Assembly (NCBI GenBank): GCA_009693575.1
Contig: SHWZ01000003.1
Span: 1 to 64,000 of the forward strand
From: Flavobacteriaceae bacterium
Lineage (GTDB): Bacteria; Bacteroidota; Bacteroidia; UKL13-3
Direction: 5' to 3'
DNA: 64,000 bases
Part shown: positions 15,100-26,259 of the stretch, in pieces
Numbering within the stretch: position 1 is the first letter of the stretch
How the letters are laid out: every line of letters starts with the position of its first letter
Translations under genes and position numbers: made by a program
Notes under the pieces: generated by a model
Seen by the model: only the letters and a program-made list of their open reading frames with translations
Told to the model about the DNA's origin: nothing
The model's database searches: none

Positions 15100-18000
15100 C
15101 TATCTCGCAATCTCAAACCTTGCAATGGCTATTTTTCCATCATTCACCGATTTGAGGATATAGATTCCAATTGCTAATGAAGTAGTGTACAAAGACCCAT
15201 TTTCGCCCTTGATAGTTTCGGTCAGCACTTGCTTACCAGCCGCATCATAGAGCGTTATGATATTCAAACCCTTGCTTAGTCCGTTTACGTTGAGTAAATC
15301 GTTGGTAGGGTTCGGCCAAAGGATAATTGGCGAAAGTTCGTTCACCGAACGAATGCCATTCGTGTTAACAAGGAAGGTTCGTGTTGCACTATCCGTATTT
15401 CCTGATGGGTCAGCAACTATATACCATGTGTAATATGTTCCTGGTGCTGTTGCAGGGTTGGCAAAAGTGCTGCTGCTTTGAAGCAATGTCATTAGAAGGT
15501 TACTGCTATAGTAGGCATCACCGATGGAGTTTACACCAGGGTCCCCGTAAGTTTGGTTTACAAAAAGGTATACAGTATCCTGCCCATTGAGATATATTAT
15601 AGGTTTCGTGGTTTTTCTCACAATGACATCTCTATTTGTAATACTTGTATTACCCGATCCATCAGTTGCGGTGTAGGTGAGTGTATACGTTCCCAACACA
15701 TTTGGATTCACAGGTCCTCCTGTAATTACTGGAGTAATGCCTGTATAAAAATTGTCGGTTACCGAAGCCCCAGGTTCTGTATAGCTTGTCTTCACTTCAT
15801 GGTAAAATGGGCTGCTACCGTTTAGTGTAATCACGGGGGCTATCAGATCTTCTACTATTACTACACGGGTTTTGGTAGAGGTGTTTCCAGTGGCATCCTT
15901 GGCCGTATAAGTTATCGTGGTGGTTTGCAGTACTGATGAATCAATTTTTGCAGGGCTCACAGTCACCGTTGGGTTAGGGTCGTAGTTGTCATTCACGCTC
16001 CAACCTGCATCTACATATTGAACAAGCACTGCTAGATGAATGGTGTCTTTTCCATTCAATGTCAGGCTTGGAGGGGCTATATCCTGCACTATCACTGTCC
16101 GCATCACACTGTCTTTGTATCCTTTGCTATCTTGGGCATAATACCAGATGCTGTAGTTGCCAAGAACGGCGGTGTTCACCGTGCCTGAAGTTGTAATGTT
16201 ATTTATGTTTCCATCCACCGAGTCGTAGGCTGTAGCCCAAGGGTCGGTGAAAGAGGTGTTCACATTTTGGTAGTAAGGATTGTTGCCCAAAAGTGTTATC
16301 ACGGGTGCTGATTTGTCTACCGTCACTTCCACTGTGCGATATACAGGATATGCATGATTACCAGCCTTGTCTTTGGCATCATACTTCACCCAATAGTACC
16401 CAAGGTTTGCTGTGTTTAGGTTGGTAGAGGGAATGGTTGGAATATATCCATCAAGTGCATCAAATGCTATTGCCCCAAGGTCTTTATAGGTCAGCCCTTG
16501 TTCAGTCTTCAACGTGTCAGAACCTATTAGCGTAATAACTGGAGCGGTTAAATCGTCGATAATGTAAATGCTGTAGTCTTCAAATTCTCCAGTGGCATTT
16601 GTTCCACAGTTTAAGAACTGTTTAGTAGGGTCAGTTATACCTACCCGCATGATGGTGTAGCCCCAAAGCACATTAGAAGCTAGTTTGTTAATCTTAATTG
16701 AGTCTGTCCAAAATTGGGTAGTTAATTTTACATTCGACTTCACCACTTCACCCGCATCTGCAAAGTCTCCATCCTGATTATAGTCAATCCATATTGCAGC
16801 ACGGGCATCTGAAGTTATAGAGCCACGCTTAACCGAGAAACCATACTTGGTGCCACTCTCAACACATGTTATAGGTGCACCTGCATAACTTGAATAGCCA
16901 GTATTGGTGGTCGATGTTTGAAAAATATCCTTAAATGAAAACTCTGATATTCCCCAATAAGCATTGGTCTTGGTAGTAACGGTAGGTATGCAATGTGGAT
17001 TTACCACTTTTATTATGTTCAGAAATGTATCAAGGCTGGAACCAGCAGCATTGGTTACTTTTAGGCTGATTGTATAAGTACCTAACGAATAAAATGTAAT
17101 ATTCGGATTCTGAATGCTGTTGCCATTATCCCAGCTATAGTTGGCAGCACTCGTCCCAACTACTTCCCACTCCCATGCAGTTGGGGCTTTGCCTGATTTG
17201 TCAAGTAACATCACACTCAAATCCTTCTCTATGGCCCACAATGCCTGAGGTTTTATTTTACAAGCACTTCCACTTGTTACGTCCACCACAAATTGCACTG
17301 GTTCTGGTGGCGTAGTCGGGTCTAACACCAGCACATCTTTGGTCACTGTATCTATTCCTCCACAACTTGTGGCGTAACAAACGCAAGTATAAGTTCCTGC
17401 TGCCCCAAAGGTATAATCACCTGTGCGGCCTTGAAAGTCAATTGTTCCATCGTTATTATAATCCCAGTCATAGGTCACACCAGTCTTATAGTATTTCACT
17501 TCGTAGGTTTGTATTCCGTATGAATAACCTGTATCTGGGGTGTTTATACTTGCTGGAGCTTTAGGTACATATTTATATTGTGTGTTCCAGTTAGCTTCCC
17601 AGCCCGATAGCGTTGAACCTGCTAGCGATTTCCAAAGAATGAACATATTGCCACTTTGTGCAGTGAAACTGTTACCTGCTTTAATCGCTTTTGGACTCAG
17701 TAACTTTCCAGTGATATCAAAGCCATCATATACCTTAAGGCTGCAACGCACACTGTCGTAGTTCATTTTAATAAAAGTCAACGTCACTGGACCTGAGCAG
17801 GGGCTTATCAATAAATCACAAGTGGTACCCTTGCTTGGATAATTTGCTGTTTTACCTCCCTCATCATAAAAATGTCCGAATATATCAGCTACTGAAGTTG
17901 TTCCGTTGCACATGCTTACACTTCCATTTACTTTAATATAGGCTTTCTTGCACACCTGGGTGCTGCCAATAGAATTAGTGGCTGTGAGGCAAACTTCATA

Positions 18001-20589
18001 TAGGCCAGAAGTGTAAAAAAGCACCTTTGGATGCTGTGACATGGAATCGCCAATAGTATAATCATAGTCAATACCTACCCCAATTCCCAAACCACCGGTG
18101 ATGGTCCATAGCCAAGAAGTTGGTCCTATCAAACTTGAATCGGTAAATTGAACTTCTTCGTTCACTTCTATGTCTACAACATCAGCTCTAAAAAATACTA
18201 CAGGTACTTTGGTGGGATTCACAACTTGGATAGTTTTTGTTGTGTCGTGACTGCCAATACAGTTGGTCGTTGTTAGTTTCATCGTGTGACTACCTAAACT
18301 TGTGTAGGTATGCCATGTATCCTGCGAAGTGTAGTCAGGGGATGAGGAGGCGTCGACATACCAGTCAAAGTATTTTCCCTGCATGAAGCTTCCGCTATTG
18401 GTGAATAAAATGGGGCTGTTAAGGAACGCCGTATCTGAAACTGAAAATTTGGAAACTGGCAATCCAGCATTATACTTTGACTCATCAGCTCCAACAGTTG
18501 GAGCTATAGTACAACGGCTTTCGTTATCATAATCTACAGTTACTCCTACCTTATAATCTCCATAGGCTGGTATGGCTGCCGCAAGGTGAAGATTCCTAGG
18601 AATAGATCCTATATTCACAAAAGGAGGAGTGGTGTTGCTGGAACTCAAATTATAGCCAAACTGGCCTTTCAGGGCTGCCAAACTTGTATAATCTGAACCC
18701 AAGTAAACAAATTTACTGCTGCTTTTACCATTGTGATATTGGTTGAAGTCGAGGTAAGCAAACTGATTTGCAGTGGCGGCATATAACGAATATGCATTAC
18801 CACCGTTCATCGAAAGGATATTGTTTCGCATATCCATATTTGTCGAATTAACGACATTGCAAGCATTGCCAGCATAACGCGTGTTATAAATTGTATTATG
18901 ATAAATGAATCCATCAGTACAATAATTCATTTGAAGTGTGTTCAAAGTCGTGGAGTCAGCACTCAGAATATTATTGACAAACAAAGGGGTTGTTTGATAA
19001 TTTAAATAGACCAGTGTCGCTGCATTACCATGAAACTCATTTCTGCTGAAATTATTCTCACTTCCATATAACGCATATATTCGGAAGTTAATTCCGCTGT
19101 ACATGCTGTTTTCGGAAATCAAGGCTGAATCTTGAAAATAGACGTATAAACTAACGCGATAGGTATAGAATTTATTGCGAACTACCTTGTTTCCATAAGC
19201 TCTGTTTGCATTGGTAGCGTTCATATAGATTCCATATCCCACGTCTTTAAAAACACAATTGCTGATTGTCATATAGGAAGGCCTACCATTCCCTCCTAAT
19301 GGCACGGTGCGGAAATAGATACCATAAGCAGTACTTAAGGAAGTAACGGAGGGAATCGTTCTAAAATTGCATGAATCGACAAATGCGTCTGAGCAGTTGC
19401 CTCTAAAATCTAGTCCAGACTGGGCATTGGCTATTTTAAAAGTCAGGTGCTTAAATTTAATATTGGTTACATCTTCCAACATAAAAACCGTACTGGCAAA
19501 TGCCTGTATTATCCTGGTAGCAGTGTCCACCCCATCAAATGTAACAGTGTTTGAGGCTGACGAACCATTTATGGTGTTAAGTGTCACTGAATCCAGATAG
19601 GTGCCAGCTGCGATTGTAAAATATACTGGCCCTGAAATACCGCAAGTATTCAATGTGGTAACTGCATCGGTGAAATTCTTAAAATTGGTACCGCTACTGG
19701 CTTGAGTTCCATTGATAGTATAGTTTCCGCTCAAAGCTGCACACACAGCGAGCGTTGCGGTATCATTGCCAACATTAGCATCTGGATTTGTACCATTTGG
19801 ATACTTTACCCAAGCTTTTATATTGTACATCCCATTGCTCACTGAAAACTGGGTTGAAAATGTATGAATATATTCAGTACATGAAGCCAGTGATAATCCA
19901 GTAATATTCTCTTGAACAATGCTACCGCCATTTATTTGATAATAAACCCTGGCACTATCTATTGCACTATTCGAATTGTTTCTCAATTTGAGCTTTAAGT
20001 CATGGTTGCCTACTGAGAGCACCGAAGAAGTAGCAAAACCTGAAGCTGAAATATCGAGATTCGATGACGCTGTTGTATAGAGTTTGAAATCATAGAAGTC
20101 TCCGTAGTAAACTTTGCATGGGTCAAATGTGGTTTTACCTCCTATATAATAAAAATAATAATCAGCAAGAACACGTATCCTGAAAGAATCTCCACAAATC
20201 ATTGGAGTAAAAGAAATGGTGTCAATTTTATTTGCAGTTAGGACAGTTCTATAATAGATAATTTCATTAAACTCAAAGGTGTCGTTCTTATTCCAATCCG
20301 CCCACATACACACAGAGGTGTTGTTGGTGACTGAGGCCTTCAGATAAAAGGTGTATTTAGACCCTGCTACCATGCTGGTGGCATTTGAATCGTATCCATC
20401 AGTGTATATTCTGGTGGTGGAATACGACGTGGAATCAAACAAAGTAGTGTTCCCAACAAGCATCTTATTTATACCCATTGTACAACATTTGTTATATGGT
20501 GCCACATTTGTGGGTGTACATATCTGTGCATTAATTGTTGTTTCCGTTACCAATATGAGAAGAATCGAAATATAAAAAAAGTGTTTCAT
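15100..20589 (-). CDS. Giant multidomain T9SS type A secreted protein (paralog A): GEVED, parallel beta-helix, PKD, CUB-like and five DUF5011-like Ig domains
   Basis: Signal peptide MKHFFYISILLILVTETTINAQ; GEVED-like AAIWIDYNQDGDFADAGEVV...GEFEDYSIYIID; five APVITLxG..-type units; C-terminal RSVNELSPIILWPNPTNDLLNVNGLSKGLNIITLYDAAGKQVL...IYILKSVNDGKIAIARFEI. Confidence 0.9.
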   Translation of the reverse strand: MKHFFYISILLILVTETTINAQICTPTNVAPYNKCCTMGINKMLVGNTTLFDSTSYSTTRIYTDGYDSNATSMVAGSKYTFYLKASVTNNTSVCMWADWNKNDTFEFNEIIYYRTVLTANKIDTISFTPMICGDSFRIRVLADYYFYYIGGKTTFDPCKVYYGDFYDFKLYTTASSNLDISASGFATSSVLSVGNHDLKLKLRNNSNSAIDSARVYYQINGGSIVQENITGLSLASCTEYIHTFSTQFSVSNGMYNIKAWVKYPNGTNPDANVGNDTATLAVCAALSGNYTINGTQASSGTNFKNFTDAVTTLNTCGISGPVYFTIAAGTYLDSVTLNTINGSSASNTVTFDGVDTATRIIQAFASTVFMLEDVTNIKFKHLTFKIANAQSGLDFRGNCSDAFVDSCNFRTIPSVTSLSTAYGIYFRTVPLGGNGRPSYMTISNCVFKDVGYGIYMNATNANRAYGNKVVRNKFYTYRVSLYVYFQDSALISENSMYSGINFRIYALYGSENNFSRNEFHGNAATLVYLNYQTTPLFVNNILSADSTTLNTLQMNYCTDGFIYHNTIYNTRYAGNACNVVNSTNMDMRNNILSMNGGNAYSLYAATANQFAYLDFNQYHNGKSSSKFVYLGSDYTSLAALKGQFGYNLSSSNTTPPFVNIGSIPRNLHLAAAIPAYGDYKVGVTVDYDNESRCTIAPTVGADESKYNAGLPVSKFSVSDTAFLNSPILFTNSGSFMQGKYFDWYVDASSSPDYTSQDTWHTYTSLGSHTMKLTTTNCIGSHDTTKTIQVVNPTKVPVVFFRADVVDIEVNEEVQFTDSSLIGPTSWLWTITGGLGIGVGIDYDYTIGDSMSQHPKVLFYTSGLYEVCLTATNSIGSTQVCKKAYIKVNGSVSMCNGTTSVADIFGHFYDEGGKTANYPSKGTTCDLLISPCSGPVTLTFIKMNYDSVRCSLKVYDGFDITGKLLSPKAIKAGNSFTAQSGNMFILWKSLAGSTLSGWEANWNTQYKYVPKAPASINTPDTGYSYGIQTYEVKYYKTGVTYDWDYNNDGTIDFQGRTGDYTFGAAGTYTCVCYATSCGGIDTVTKDVLVLDPTTPPEPVQFVVDVTSGSACKIKPQALWAIEKDLSVMLLDKSGKAPTAWEWEVVGTSAANYSWDNGNSIQNPNITFYSLGTYTISLKVTNAAGSSLDTFLNIIKVVNPHCIPTVTTKTNAYWGISEFSFKDIFQTSTTNTGYSSYAGAPITCVESGTKYGFSVKRGSITSDARAAIWIDYNQDGDFADAGEVVKSNVKLTTQFWTDSIKINKLASNVLWGYTIMRVGITDPTKQFLNCGTNATGEFEDYSIYIIDDLTAPVITLIGSDTLKTEQGLTYKDLGAIAFDALDGYIPTIPSTNLNTANLGYYWVKYDAKDKAGNHAYPVYRTVEVTVDKSAPVITLLGNNPYYQNVNTSFTDPWATAYDSVDGNINNITTSGTVNTAVLGNYSIWYYAQDSKGYKDSVMRTVIVQDIAPPSLTLNGKDTIHLAVLVQYVDAGWSVNDNYDPNPTVTVSPAKIDSSVLQTTTITYTAKDATGNTSTKTRVVIVEDLIAPVITLNGSSPFYHEVKTSYTEPGASVTDNFYTGITPVITGGPVNPNVLGTYTLTYTATDGSGNTSITNRDVIVRKTTKPIIYLNGQDTVYLFVNQTYGDPGVNSIGDAYYSSNLLMTLLQSSSTFANPATAPGTYYTWYIVADPSGNTDSATRTFLVNTNGIRSVNELSPIILWPNPTNDLLNVNGLSKGLNIITLYDAAGKQVLTETIKGENGSLYTTSLAIGIYILKSVNDGKIAIARFEIAR

Positions 20590-20748: not shown

Positions 20749-23700
20749 CTATCTCGCTATCTCGAACCTTGCTATCGACATTTTTCCGTCGTTCACGGCT
20801 TTAAGGATGTACACACCAGCAGCCAATGTTGCAGTGTTCAATGTGCCGTTCTCCCCCTTGATTTTTTCGGTCAATACTTGCTTGCCGGCTGCATCGTAGA
20901 GGGTTACTTGATTCGTGCCGTTGCTCAGCCCCTTTATGTTCAGCATATCGTTGGCAGGGTTTGGCCACAGGGTTATTGGCGAAAGTTCGTTCACCGAACG
21001 GATACCGGTAGTTTCTACAATGAAGGTACGCGTGGCTGTGTCGGTATTACTTGACGGGTCGGTCACGAAATACCAAGTATAATAGGTGCCAGGGGCTGTG
21101 GCTGGATTGGCAAACGTGCTGCTGCTCTGCAATAGTGTTATCAATTGAGCACTGCTGTAGTAGTTGTCGCTGATTGAGTTTACTCCAGGGTCGCCGTAGG
21201 TTTGGTTCACAAGAAGGTATACTGTGTCTTGTCCGTTGAGGTGTACCGTAGGTTTGGTCTTCTTCTGCACTATCACGTCACGGTCAATGGAAGCTGTGTT
21301 GCCTGAAGCATCGGTGGCCGTGTAGGTAAGTGTATATGAGCCAATCACATTGGGGTTCACAGGGCCACCGGTTATTACTGGAGTGATGCCCGTCGTGTGG
21401 TTGTCGGTAACTATCGCTCCTGGCTCTGTGTAGGTGGTCTTTACTTCGTGATACAGTGGGCTTGCTCCATTTAGGTTAATCACGGGGGCTATCAGGTCTT
21501 CCACTATTACCACACGGGTTTTGCTGCTGCTGTTGCCAATGGCATCCTTGGCCGTATAAGTTATCGTGGTGGTTTGCAGTACTGATGAATCAATTTTTGC
21601 AGGGCTCATAGTCACCGTTGGGTTAGGGTCGTAGTTGTCATTCACGCTCCAACCTGCATCTACATATTGAACAAGCACTGCTAGATGAATGGTGTCTTTT
21701 CCATTCAATGTCAGGCTTGGAGGGGCAATGTCTTGCACTACCACTGTCCGCATCACACTGTCTTTGTATCCTTTTCCATCCTGGGCATAATACCATATCT
21801 GATAGCTGCCTAGAACGGTGGTGTTCACTGTGCCTTTGGTAGTAATGTTGTTGATGTTGCCGTCCACCGAGTCGTAGGCTGTAGCCCATGGGTCGGTGAA
21901 ACTAGTGTTCACGTTGTGATAATATGGGTTGTTGCCCAGCAGCGTAATAACTGGAGCAGACTTATCAGCCGTAACCTCAACAGTGCGGTAAACAGGATAT
22001 GCATAGTTGCCGGCCTTGTCTTTGGCGTCATATTTCAACCAATAATACCCAAGGTTTGCGGTGTTTAGGTTGGTTGAAGAAATGGTTGGAATATATCCAT
22101 CAAGTGCATCAAATGCTATTGCCCCAAGGTCTTTATAGGTCAGCCCTTGTTCAGTCTTCAACGTGTCAGAACCTATTAGCGTAATAACTGGAGCGGTTAA
22201 ATCGTCGATAATGTAAATCAAATAATCCTCGAACTCACCAACCGAATTATTGGCACAAGTAAAAAATTGGTTTGACGGGTCAGTAATTCCAACTCGCATG
22301 TGTGCTTGACCCCACAAAACCATGTTTGATAATTTGCTTATTTTAAAGGAATCGCTCCATGTCAAAGCATTCAAGTTCTGAGTTGATTTTACCAATTCAC
22401 CTGCATCTGTAAAGTCTCCATCCTGATTATAGTCAATCCATATTGCAGCACGGGCATTGGTTGTGGTGCTGCCACGTTTTAGTGCAAATTTGTAAAATGT
22501 ACCACTTTCCACACAAGGCATTGGACTAGCAGTTTGGCTGTATCCAGTATAAGCAGAAGTATTGGTACTAATATCCCTAAAATTAAATCTAGTAATACCA
22601 AAATAATCAGGCCCTGGAGAAGTGACTGTTGGTGTACAGTGTGCATTCACCACTTTTATTACTTGATAGAATGTATCTACATTGCTACCTGCAACATTGG
22701 TTACCTTAAGACTTATAGTATAAAAACCATTCACTACGAAGGTGATAGTCGGATTCTGAATGCTGTTGCTATTGTCCCACGAGTAGTTGGCAGTATTTGC
22801 TCCTACTACTTCCCACTCCCATGCAGTTGGTCCTCTTCCCGATTTGTCCATTAAGGTGACGCTTACCCCATTCTCCACCGCCCAAATGGTGCGTGGCCTT
22901 AGTTTGCAAGCACTTCCATTGGTTACGTCCATTACAAATTGAACAGGCTCGGGAGGTGTAGTAGGGTCTAATACAAGTACGTCCTTGGTCACAGTGTCCA
23001 CTCCACCACAACTGGTTGCGTAGCACACGCAGGTATAAGTTCCAGCAGCTCCGTAAGTATAATCGCCCGAGCGACCTTGAAAGTCAATCGTTCCATCATT
23101 ATCATAATCCCAGTCATACTGCACACCTGCCGTGTAATATTTAACTTCATACGTTTGAGTACCGTAAGAGTAACCTGTGTCTCCTACGTTTATGCTAGCT
23201 GGAGCTTTAGCCACATACTGACTCTTTGTATCCCAACTCGCTTCCCAACCTATATAACTTGTCCATGCTTGCTGTTCCCACAATATGAACATTGAACCAG
23301 TTTGAGCCGTCAATGTTGCTCCTGGTTTCACTCCGTTTTTGTTTAGTTGTTTGCCAGAGGCATCTACCCCATCATAAATCTTTAGCGTAGCCGAGTTTGA
23401 ATCAAAATTAACTGAGGTAAAAGTCATTATGACGGGGCCGGAACATGGTGCAATCAGGTCGGCACAAACTTTAGGTTGAGCAGAGTTGTTGGTTGCGTAT
23501 CCTGCCTTGCCACCCTCATCATAAAAGCGACCAAACATATCAGCAACTGTAACACCTGAACACATCATCATTAGGGAGTTCACTTTGATGTAATTTGTTT
23601 TGCAAAGTGTTGTTGCCCCGACAGAGTTGGTAGCGGTAAGACAAATGGTGTAGAAGCCAGCATTATAAAATTGTACTTTAGGGTGCTGCGACATAGAATC

Positions 23701-26259
23701 GCCCACTGTATAATCAAAATCAATTCCTAAACCTAAACCAGTACCGCCAGATATAGTCCAGTTCCAACTCACGGCACCAATTGTACTAGAGTCCATGAAC
23801 TGAACCTCATCCGAAATTTCAATATTAGTTTTGTCAGCCCTAAAATATACAACTGGGGCTTTTGTCGGTGTAACAATCAGTACATATTTAGATGTATCAT
23901 GGCTACCGGTGCAATTGATCGTATTCAGTTTTACTTCTTTACTGCCAGTAGCATTGAAAGTATGCCAAGCATCTTCTGAGGTATAAGTTGGCTGTGCGGC
24001 CCCATCCATATACCAGTCGAAGAATTTACCTTGGGTATATGAACCTTTATTCTTAAAAAATACTGGGCTGTTTATATAGCCAGTATCAGGGCAAACGAAA
24101 TCTGAAACAGGCATAGTAATCACATATTTCGACTCATCTGCTCCAATGGTTGGGGCAATGCTGCAACGGCTATTGCTATCAATATCAATGGCTACTCCAA
24201 TAGTATAATCGCCATAACTCGGAATGGTAGCGGACGAGAGGTGCAGATTACGAGGTGTCGAACTAATATTTACGAAAGGTGGCTTGGCATTCACAGCATA
24301 CATATTGTAGCCAAATTGGCCTTTCAAAGCAGCCAAATCTTTGTAATCGCCACCCAAATAGGCATAATTAGAACTGTTGTTAGCATTGTGGTATACGTTA
24401 AAATCAAGGTATGAAAACTGACCTGAAGTTCCACCGTAAAAGCAATAACTGTTTGTTCCGGTCATATGAAAAATATTGTTGCGTACATCAGCATTTGTAC
24501 ATGAAGAAAAGCTGCCGGCGTAACCAGAAGTATTACTATTATAGCAAGTATTATGATAGAATTGGAAATCTGAACATGTTTGGAGTTGAACAGTACTGCT
24601 TACATTACCACCTCCACTAAAAATATTATTTACAAATCCAGTATTTGATTGATTATAAAACATACCGCATACACTGCCATCCATATCCACATCATTTCGT
24701 GTAAAGTTATTATAATCGCCTTCGTAAGCATAAATTCCATAGGCACCTGCACTGCGAACGATATTTTCTGAAACAAGCAGGGAGTCTTGATATTGGATGA
24801 TCATTCCATAAGTAGTTGCACCTACTTTGTTGCGTAAGATAATATTATTAGCACCATTGGTATTTCCACCATTCATCCAAATTCCATATCCCATTTCTTT
24901 AACAACACAATTTGAAATTGTCACATGCGTGGCAGGGCTATTTCCACCTTTATTGGCGTTAAAATTAATGCCATATGATGCAGGTGTCGCAGTGCTTACA
25001 ACTCTAAAATTGCATGAATCAATTAATATATCTGTACAACCACCGGCCAACTCCATATCATAGCCAAATTGGCCAGCTTTGAATGTAATGTGCTTAAATC
25101 GTATAAAGGATGCTTCATCCAAAGTAAATGTAATTGCTCCGCTAACCGTGGACTGAATAATGCGATTCGCCGTATCAACTCCGTCAAATGTTATCGTATT
25201 AGTAGCTGATGCTCCATTCACAGCACCCAATATCACAGACTCAGTATATGTGCCAGCAGCAACTGTAAAAATTACTGGACCTGAAATTCCACATTGATTA
25301 ATTGCCGCCACTGCTGATGAAAAGTCAGAATAATTGTTTCCTGAAGTTGATTGGCTTTTGTCGATGGTATAGTTGCCAGACAGAGATGTACAAGCTGTTG
25401 TTTGCATACTGTCGTTTGACTGATTTGCGTCAGGTTGACTTCCATTGGCGTAGCTCACCCACATTTTTAAATCATAATTCCCAGCTTGCGAAATACTAAG
25501 GTTCTGGCTAAAAAGGAATGTATCAGTTTCACAAGTGGCGAGATTTAAGGTGCTTCCAGAACGTGTTTTTGTTACTGATTCTGTCACGGCACTTCCACCT
25601 TTCAGAGCGTATCCAGCTATAAATGAATCAATGTTATTTCCGGCCAAATTTGTATAGGTAAATTCTACAGGATTATTATTGCTGATGGTTAAAACATAAG
25701 GTTGTAAAACACTTTCAATACCAAGGTCAGTGCCCCCTGAACCAACCACTGCTATTTTTAAGTCTACAAAGTCACCATACTGATGACCAGTACATGGATC
25801 GAATGCTCCTCCACCTGCGTAATAGTTATACCAATCAACCATCACCCGCATCCGGTAATTCCCTGAAGTTTGATTGCTAGGAACAGGTAATGAGTCATCC
25901 AATTTGCCACCTGCCGCAATCTGATTCGTAGACATTATGATTTCGCTACTTGAGAAAGTATCATTTTTATCCCAGTCAACCCAGACACAAATCGCTTGTT
26001 GATTTGCTCCGCTTTGCGTTGTTACCGATAGAAAATATTTTTTACCTGCGGTTACACAGGCTGAATAGTTTGGATACTCATTGTAGTAAGAGATTCCTGT
26101 GTTGTAATTACTAATCGAGTAATTAATTGAAGTACTTACAGAAATGTTACTGATTCCAATGTTGCAACATTTTGTTGCCATGGTTGGTGTACAAACTTGT
26201 GCTGAAGCATAAAAGCTAGTTAACAATAAGGAGAAAAGGATGAGTTGAATTTTTTTCAT
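20749..26259 (-). CDS. Giant multidomain T9SS type A secreted protein (paralog B of 15100-20589)
   Basis: Same domain order and length (1836 vs 1829 aa), signal peptide MKKIQLILFSLLLTSFYASAQ, same DUF5011-like block and T9SS type A tail RSVNELSPITLWPNPANDMLNIKGLSNG. Confidence 0.9.
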   Translation of the reverse strand: MKKIQLILFSLLLTSFYASAQVCTPTMATKCCNIGISNISVSTSINYSISNYNTGISYYNEYPNYSACVTAGKKYFLSVTTQSGANQQAICVWVDWDKNDTFSSSEIIMSTNQIAAGGKLDDSLPVPSNQTSGNYRMRVMVDWYNYYAGGGAFDPCTGHQYGDFVDLKIAVVGSGGTDLGIESVLQPYVLTISNNNPVEFTYTNLAGNNIDSFIAGYALKGGSAVTESVTKTRSGSTLNLATCETDTFLFSQNLSISQAGNYDLKMWVSYANGSQPDANQSNDSMQTTACTSLSGNYTIDKSQSTSGNNYSDFSSAVAAINQCGISGPVIFTVAAGTYTESVILGAVNGASATNTITFDGVDTANRIIQSTVSGAITFTLDEASFIRFKHITFKAGQFGYDMELAGGCTDILIDSCNFRVVSTATPASYGINFNANKGGNSPATHVTISNCVVKEMGYGIWMNGGNTNGANNIILRNKVGATTYGMIIQYQDSLLVSENIVRSAGAYGIYAYEGDYNNFTRNDVDMDGSVCGMFYNQSNTGFVNNIFSGGGNVSSTVQLQTCSDFQFYHNTCYNSNTSGYAGSFSSCTNADVRNNIFHMTGTNSYCFYGGTSGQFSYLDFNVYHNANNSSNYAYLGGDYKDLAALKGQFGYNMYAVNAKPPFVNISSTPRNLHLSSATIPSYGDYTIGVAIDIDSNSRCSIAPTIGADESKYVITMPVSDFVCPDTGYINSPVFFKNKGSYTQGKFFDWYMDGAAQPTYTSEDAWHTFNATGSKEVKLNTINCTGSHDTSKYVLIVTPTKAPVVYFRADKTNIEISDEVQFMDSSTIGAVSWNWTISGGTGLGLGIDFDYTVGDSMSQHPKVQFYNAGFYTICLTATNSVGATTLCKTNYIKVNSLMMMCSGVTVADMFGRFYDEGGKAGYATNNSAQPKVCADLIAPCSGPVIMTFTSVNFDSNSATLKIYDGVDASGKQLNKNGVKPGATLTAQTGSMFILWEQQAWTSYIGWEASWDTKSQYVAKAPASINVGDTGYSYGTQTYEVKYYTAGVQYDWDYDNDGTIDFQGRSGDYTYGAAGTYTCVCYATSCGGVDTVTKDVLVLDPTTPPEPVQFVMDVTNGSACKLRPRTIWAVENGVSVTLMDKSGRGPTAWEWEVVGANTANYSWDNSNSIQNPTITFVVNGFYTISLKVTNVAGSNVDTFYQVIKVVNAHCTPTVTSPGPDYFGITRFNFRDISTNTSAYTGYSQTASPMPCVESGTFYKFALKRGSTTTNARAAIWIDYNQDGDFTDAGELVKSTQNLNALTWSDSFKISKLSNMVLWGQAHMRVGITDPSNQFFTCANNSVGEFEDYLIYIIDDLTAPVITLIGSDTLKTEQGLTYKDLGAIAFDALDGYIPTISSTNLNTANLGYYWLKYDAKDKAGNYAYPVYRTVEVTADKSAPVITLLGNNPYYHNVNTSFTDPWATAYDSVDGNINNITTKGTVNTTVLGSYQIWYYAQDGKGYKDSVMRTVVVQDIAPPSLTLNGKDTIHLAVLVQYVDAGWSVNDNYDPNPTVTMSPAKIDSSVLQTTTITYTAKDAIGNSSSKTRVVIVEDLIAPVINLNGASPLYHEVKTTYTEPGAIVTDNHTTGITPVITGGPVNPNVIGSYTLTYTATDASGNTASIDRDVIVQKKTKPTVHLNGQDTVYLLVNQTYGDPGVNSISDNYYSSAQLITLLQSSSTFANPATAPGTYYTWYFVTDPSSNTDTATRTFIVETTGIRSVNELSPITLWPNPANDMLNIKGLSNGTNQVTLYDAAGKQVLTEKIKGENGTLNTATLAAGVYILKAVNDGKMSIARFEIAR

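Follow-up and report, generated by a model that had tools for sequence, protein, structure and literature searches.

Two neighbouring genes, here called A and B, are very probably old tandem duplicates, themselves an older mosaic, in which two C-terminal segments have recently been copied between the copies by ectopic gene conversion. They lie in the window, that is, the whole stretch of 64,000 nucleotides that was analysed, and the source assembly is an uncultured Bacteroidetes-type MAG of 2.44 Mb that is 92% complete and divided into 86 contigs. Both genes are on the minus strand: A occupies 15100..20589 and encodes 1829 amino acids, B occupies 20749..26259 and encodes 1836. They are direct tandem paralogs separated by a gap of about 160 bp, and their proteins are 63% identical. 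The A protein is composed of a GEVED domain, a beta-helix, a PKD domain, a further GEVED domain, five Ig-like repeats (PF16403) and a T9SS sorting tail (PF18962), and the overall architecture of B is the same. A domain search found five significant PF16403 stretches in each of the two proteins, and in both the C-terminal Por_Secre_tail sorting domain scores above the gathering threshold. The genome also contains a gene for the T9SS translocon protein SprA/Sov (SprA_N, PF14349; E 8.9e-158), a domain that was found in 0 of 14 control genomes. From the sorting domain and the presence of SprA in the genome, A and B are predicted to be giant secreted surface proteins exported by the T9SS. Elsewhere in the window, the 38-bp stretch 1237-1274 is 95% identical to its reverse complement. 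This makes it an almost perfect long palindrome or hairpin, possibly a terminator.

At an offset of 5649, two tracts of A and B are nearly indistinguishable in DNA. The longer one, T2 (minus strand, 15891..16077 in A and 21540..21726 in B), extends over 187 bp and is interrupted by a single mismatch at 15960, which divides it into exact runs of 117 and 69 bp. It covers residues 1505-1567 and begins at codon 1 of Ig-like repeat 3, a single case that may be due to chance. The shorter one, T1 (minus strand, 16432..16569 in A and 22081..22218 in B), is exact over its 138 bp; it covers residues 1341-1387, which form the end of the GEVED domain and the first part of Ig-like repeat 1. The spacer of about 355 bp between the two tracts has 91% amino acid identity, yet its degenerate codons agree in only 56%; with synonymous sites so diverged, what remains is not one continuous copied block. 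An initial annotation of this DNA had already aligned 15892-16077 with 21541-21726 and reported one difference, which is indeed the only one (C/T at 15960), together with diverged DNA on both sides and, around 17300-17480, a nearly identical protein encoded by altered DNA. This last contrast proved real, since 17314-17493 combines an amino acid identity of 0.88 with a dS of 1.8. Its proposal of ectopic conversion within an older duplication is supported by our results but was incomplete, as both T1 (16432-16569) and the older mosaic had been missed.

The statistical evidence for the tracts is of several kinds. Sliding windows of 60 codons along the 5.5-kb A/B alignment (Nei-Gojobori) reveal that dS is not uniform, as the initial annotation had anticipated for a conversion tract, and is low at the tracts only: it is 0.05-0.12 in the two windows that best cover T2, 0.21 at T1, and about 1.0 to saturated in every window clear of both, the flanks included. 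Over the whole pair, 567 of the 1105 degenerate codons that specify the same residue in A and B are identical (46% outside the tracts), whereas in the tracts all 106 are, as a run of 60 in T2 and a run of 46 in T1. The longest identical-codon run obtained in 20,000 permutations was 23, so that the run of 60 in T2 is not attributable to chance. A two-state HMM segmentation recovered both tracts with a posterior >0.999, whichever of the two background rates was used. The tracts together contain 80 synonymous sites and zero changes, which sets an upper bound of <0.037 on pS.

A third identical patch, of 47 bp (minus strand, 16762..16808 in A and 22411-22457 in B), coincides with the GEVED motif RAAIWIDYNQDGDF. 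It is weaker than the tracts (permutation p 0.004), and a search of 63 other genomes found the GEVED stretch at this position to be conserved in DNA across the family. Conversion was dropped as an explanation for 16762-16808 because of this family-wide conservation, and the patch probably represents the conserved motif itself rather than a conversion tract.

Could T1 and T2 have a similar origin, purifying selection on the DNA or RNA (a structured RNA, a regulatory site or codon bias) having held them identical in both copies? Their region is also conserved in protein, at about 90% of amino acids, and the GEVED patch does behave like constrained DNA and is the source of the matches in other genomes of the family. 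The tracts, however, show ordinary synonymous divergence from their relatives, the codon identity of A with its ortholog in the genome G011 and with the C22 pair (C22a and C22b, the other tandem pair in the same genome) being 0.21-0.46 across T1 and T2. Against G011a, their closest ortholog (49% amino acid identity), A and B have a codon identity of 0.44-0.46 in the tracts and 0.29-0.43 outside them; between A and the C22 pair it is 0.21-0.43 in the tracts. Close matches to the tract DNA were found in 0 of the 63 other family genomes: a DNA search with the 1.75-kb region returned almost exclusively the 50-bp GEVED motif near 16746-16799, T1 had no match in these genomes, and the sole contact of T2 was one 59-bp, 76% match in G011 at the tract edge. 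The C22 pair, whose proteins are 59% identical, lacks any tract, its longest run being 11 (p 0.18), and at the T2 region its members share 85% of amino acids with a codon identity of only 0.48. RNA-level constraint had been named in the initial annotation as the competing explanation; the tract DNA is conserved neither in orthologs, nor in other paralogs, nor in the 63 family genomes. We have rejected constraint at the DNA or RNA level for these reasons, and consider it extremely improbable.

The identity might instead have been created by the assembly or consensus of the MAG, the reads of one copy having been polished into both at the tracts. The fragmentation of the assembly (86 contigs at 92% completeness) would favor such an artefact, as would the breaks seen at such tracts in the contigs of relatives and the length of T1, which at 138 bp is close to that of a short read. 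Nonetheless, a mis-join at a repeat cannot make a repeat, one difference between A and B survives in T2, the exact runs of 138, 117 and 69 bp match no fixed k-mer length, and the contig is unbroken across A and B; an artefact is very unlikely. There is also a slim chance that a third source, either another paralog or imported DNA with a similar gene, overwrote both A and B. Neither GC3 nor codon usage clearly places the tracts with A or with B, and a copy in the unassembled part of the incomplete (92%) MAG could have donated to both. Against this, the assembled genome contains no further copy of a tract, and a third source would have to donate DNA twice for each of the two tracts, where copying between A and B needs a single transfer.

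Under gene conversion between A and B, the explanation we prefer, two segments of the Ig-like/GEVED C-terminal region, 138 and about 186 bp long, would have been copied recently, and in one direction, from one gene to the other. Non-reciprocal copying fits because both genes carry one version of each tract; after a reciprocal exchange the versions in A and B would differ. The route may have been RecA-type homologous recombination without crossover, and the genome has genes for homologs of RecA and MutS. Two conversion events would be the simplest count, and they were probably separate, since more than 96% of the gene conversion tracts in the duplicate tuf genes of Salmonella are contiguous (PMC5485169). 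Local GC3 is 0.39 in the tract, 0.43 in A and 0.53 in B (Fisher p 0.01); the tract is nearer to A, which in this local region only leans weakly toward copying from A to B. Neither this lean nor the amino-acid-conditioned codon likelihood is decisive as to the donor. No sister-strain orthologs of A and B were found in a search of genome contigs or in the 63 other family genomes.

The pair was apparently already composite before these events. The N-terminal module of B, about residues 1-350 (minus strand, approximately 25210..26259), groups with the C22 pair of the same genome and not with A, and the equivalent module of A (minus strand, approximately 19540..20589) groups with G011a, which belongs to another genus. 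Over residues 1-350, identity is about 0.50 between A and G011a, about 0.35 between A and B, and about 0.53 between B and C22a; beyond residue 380 or so, A and B are mutually closest over most of their length. In trees built from few taxa, residues 20-350 unite A with G011a (support 100/99) and B with C22a and C22b (93/95 only), and residues 380-1340 unite A with B (100/99). AU tests, whose p-values are optimistic in that the N-terminal grouping was first spotted in the data later tested, rejected A+B for residues 20-350 (p-AU 8e-5), and rejected A+G011a and B+C22 both for residues 380-1340 (p 0.0016 and 3e-29) and for residues 1340-1829 (p 0.0005 and 1e-7). At the scale of domains, the residues of A and B beyond 380 group by genome and not with the N-terminal ortholog of A. 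On this phylogenetic evidence the pair is an older mosaic, the N-terminal 350 or so residues of B being assigned to the C22 lineage and its remainder to that of A. In the simplest history, A would first have been duplicated to give B, the N-terminal module of B would have been replaced from (or exchanged with) the C22 lineage, and the C-terminal tracts would have been converted later. An N-terminal fragment with which G011:C15 ends was considered as an ortholog of B in G011 and discarded; it belongs to another beta-helix gene.

Tract sharing appears, from the genomes compared, to be recurrent in this family but not universal. More than 100 within-genome pairs were tested and the majority have no tract; the tests were positive in G004, G005 and G027 and weaker in G019, and no conversion tracts were detected in two large tandem clusters, one in G013 and one in G031. 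Each of these two clusters (G031:C14 and G013:C29) holds about seven paralogs of the family on a single contig. A protein search, counted by eye, located 17 C-terminal family fragments, in ten genomes, whose first base lies no more than about 65 bp from where a contig starts, and a few further fragments sit at contig ends. In G004, G005 and G032, exact tracts of 98-149 bp common to different copies of the family lie where contigs start or end. Within one genome, contig starts share exact stretches of 119 bp (G004, twice) or 149 bp (G005 and G032), in G032 followed by exact stretches of 97 and 95 bp. Beyond the shared stretches identity is about 80% in G004 and G005, and the G004 copies further share two exact runs, of 66 and 98 bp, that lie internally between divergent flanks. 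The exact lengths of 119 and 149 are probably assembler k-mers, and the true tracts would hence run past the contig ends. The shared stretches of G032 could alternatively come from a bin that mixes strain variants. A 149-bp exact stretch is also common to the start of G011:C15 (1-149) and G011:C1:235745-235893. Both sites lie within beta-helix repeat genes, and the pattern in this second family of surface proteins resembles the one described above.

Gene conversion is well known in bacteria, and A and B are an instance of it in a little-studied protein family; in a limited literature collection searched for gene conversion among paralogs of Bacteroidetes or of the T9SS, no title or abstract describes this family. 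The pair is a clear-cut example of conversion in short tracts between tandem paralogs that have diverged strongly and encode large T9SS proteins, and it comes with internal negative controls. It also carries two practical warnings: homogenised tracts in such genes break metagenome assemblies, and orthology based on a single domain can mislead when parts of one protein yield different trees. That the giant T9SS surface proteins of this family continually swap segments among tandem and dispersed paralogs is a tentative and rather doubtful generalization. If true, the swapping of N-terminal modules and the homogenisation of the C-terminal Ig-like array would constitute a standing diversification of the surface, with an effect similar to that of antigenic variation.

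Several known systems invite comparison. A duplicated PE_PGRS pair of tubercle bacilli (PMC1762029) likewise involves rearrangement inside a bacterial duplicate gene pair; it concerns another protein family and phylum, and we set it beside A and B by description. In Porphyromonas gingivalis, a naturally competent oral species, strain comparison has demonstrated domain rearrangement and allelic exchange in surface proteins (PMC5266723). There too recombination has made Bacteroidetes surface proteins mosaic, among them gingipains that carry the T9SS C-terminal domain, but our case involves paralogs within one genome and the unrelated GEVED/beta-helix/Ig-like family. The duplicate tuf genes of Salmonella, which differ at 12 positions in 1185 nt and lie in inverse orientation 762 kb apart (PMC5485169), resemble A and B in the one-way copying of short tracts between duplicates on one chromosome. 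Unlike them, A and B share 63% protein identity, are directly repeated 160 bp apart, and have tracts bounded by diverged DNA.
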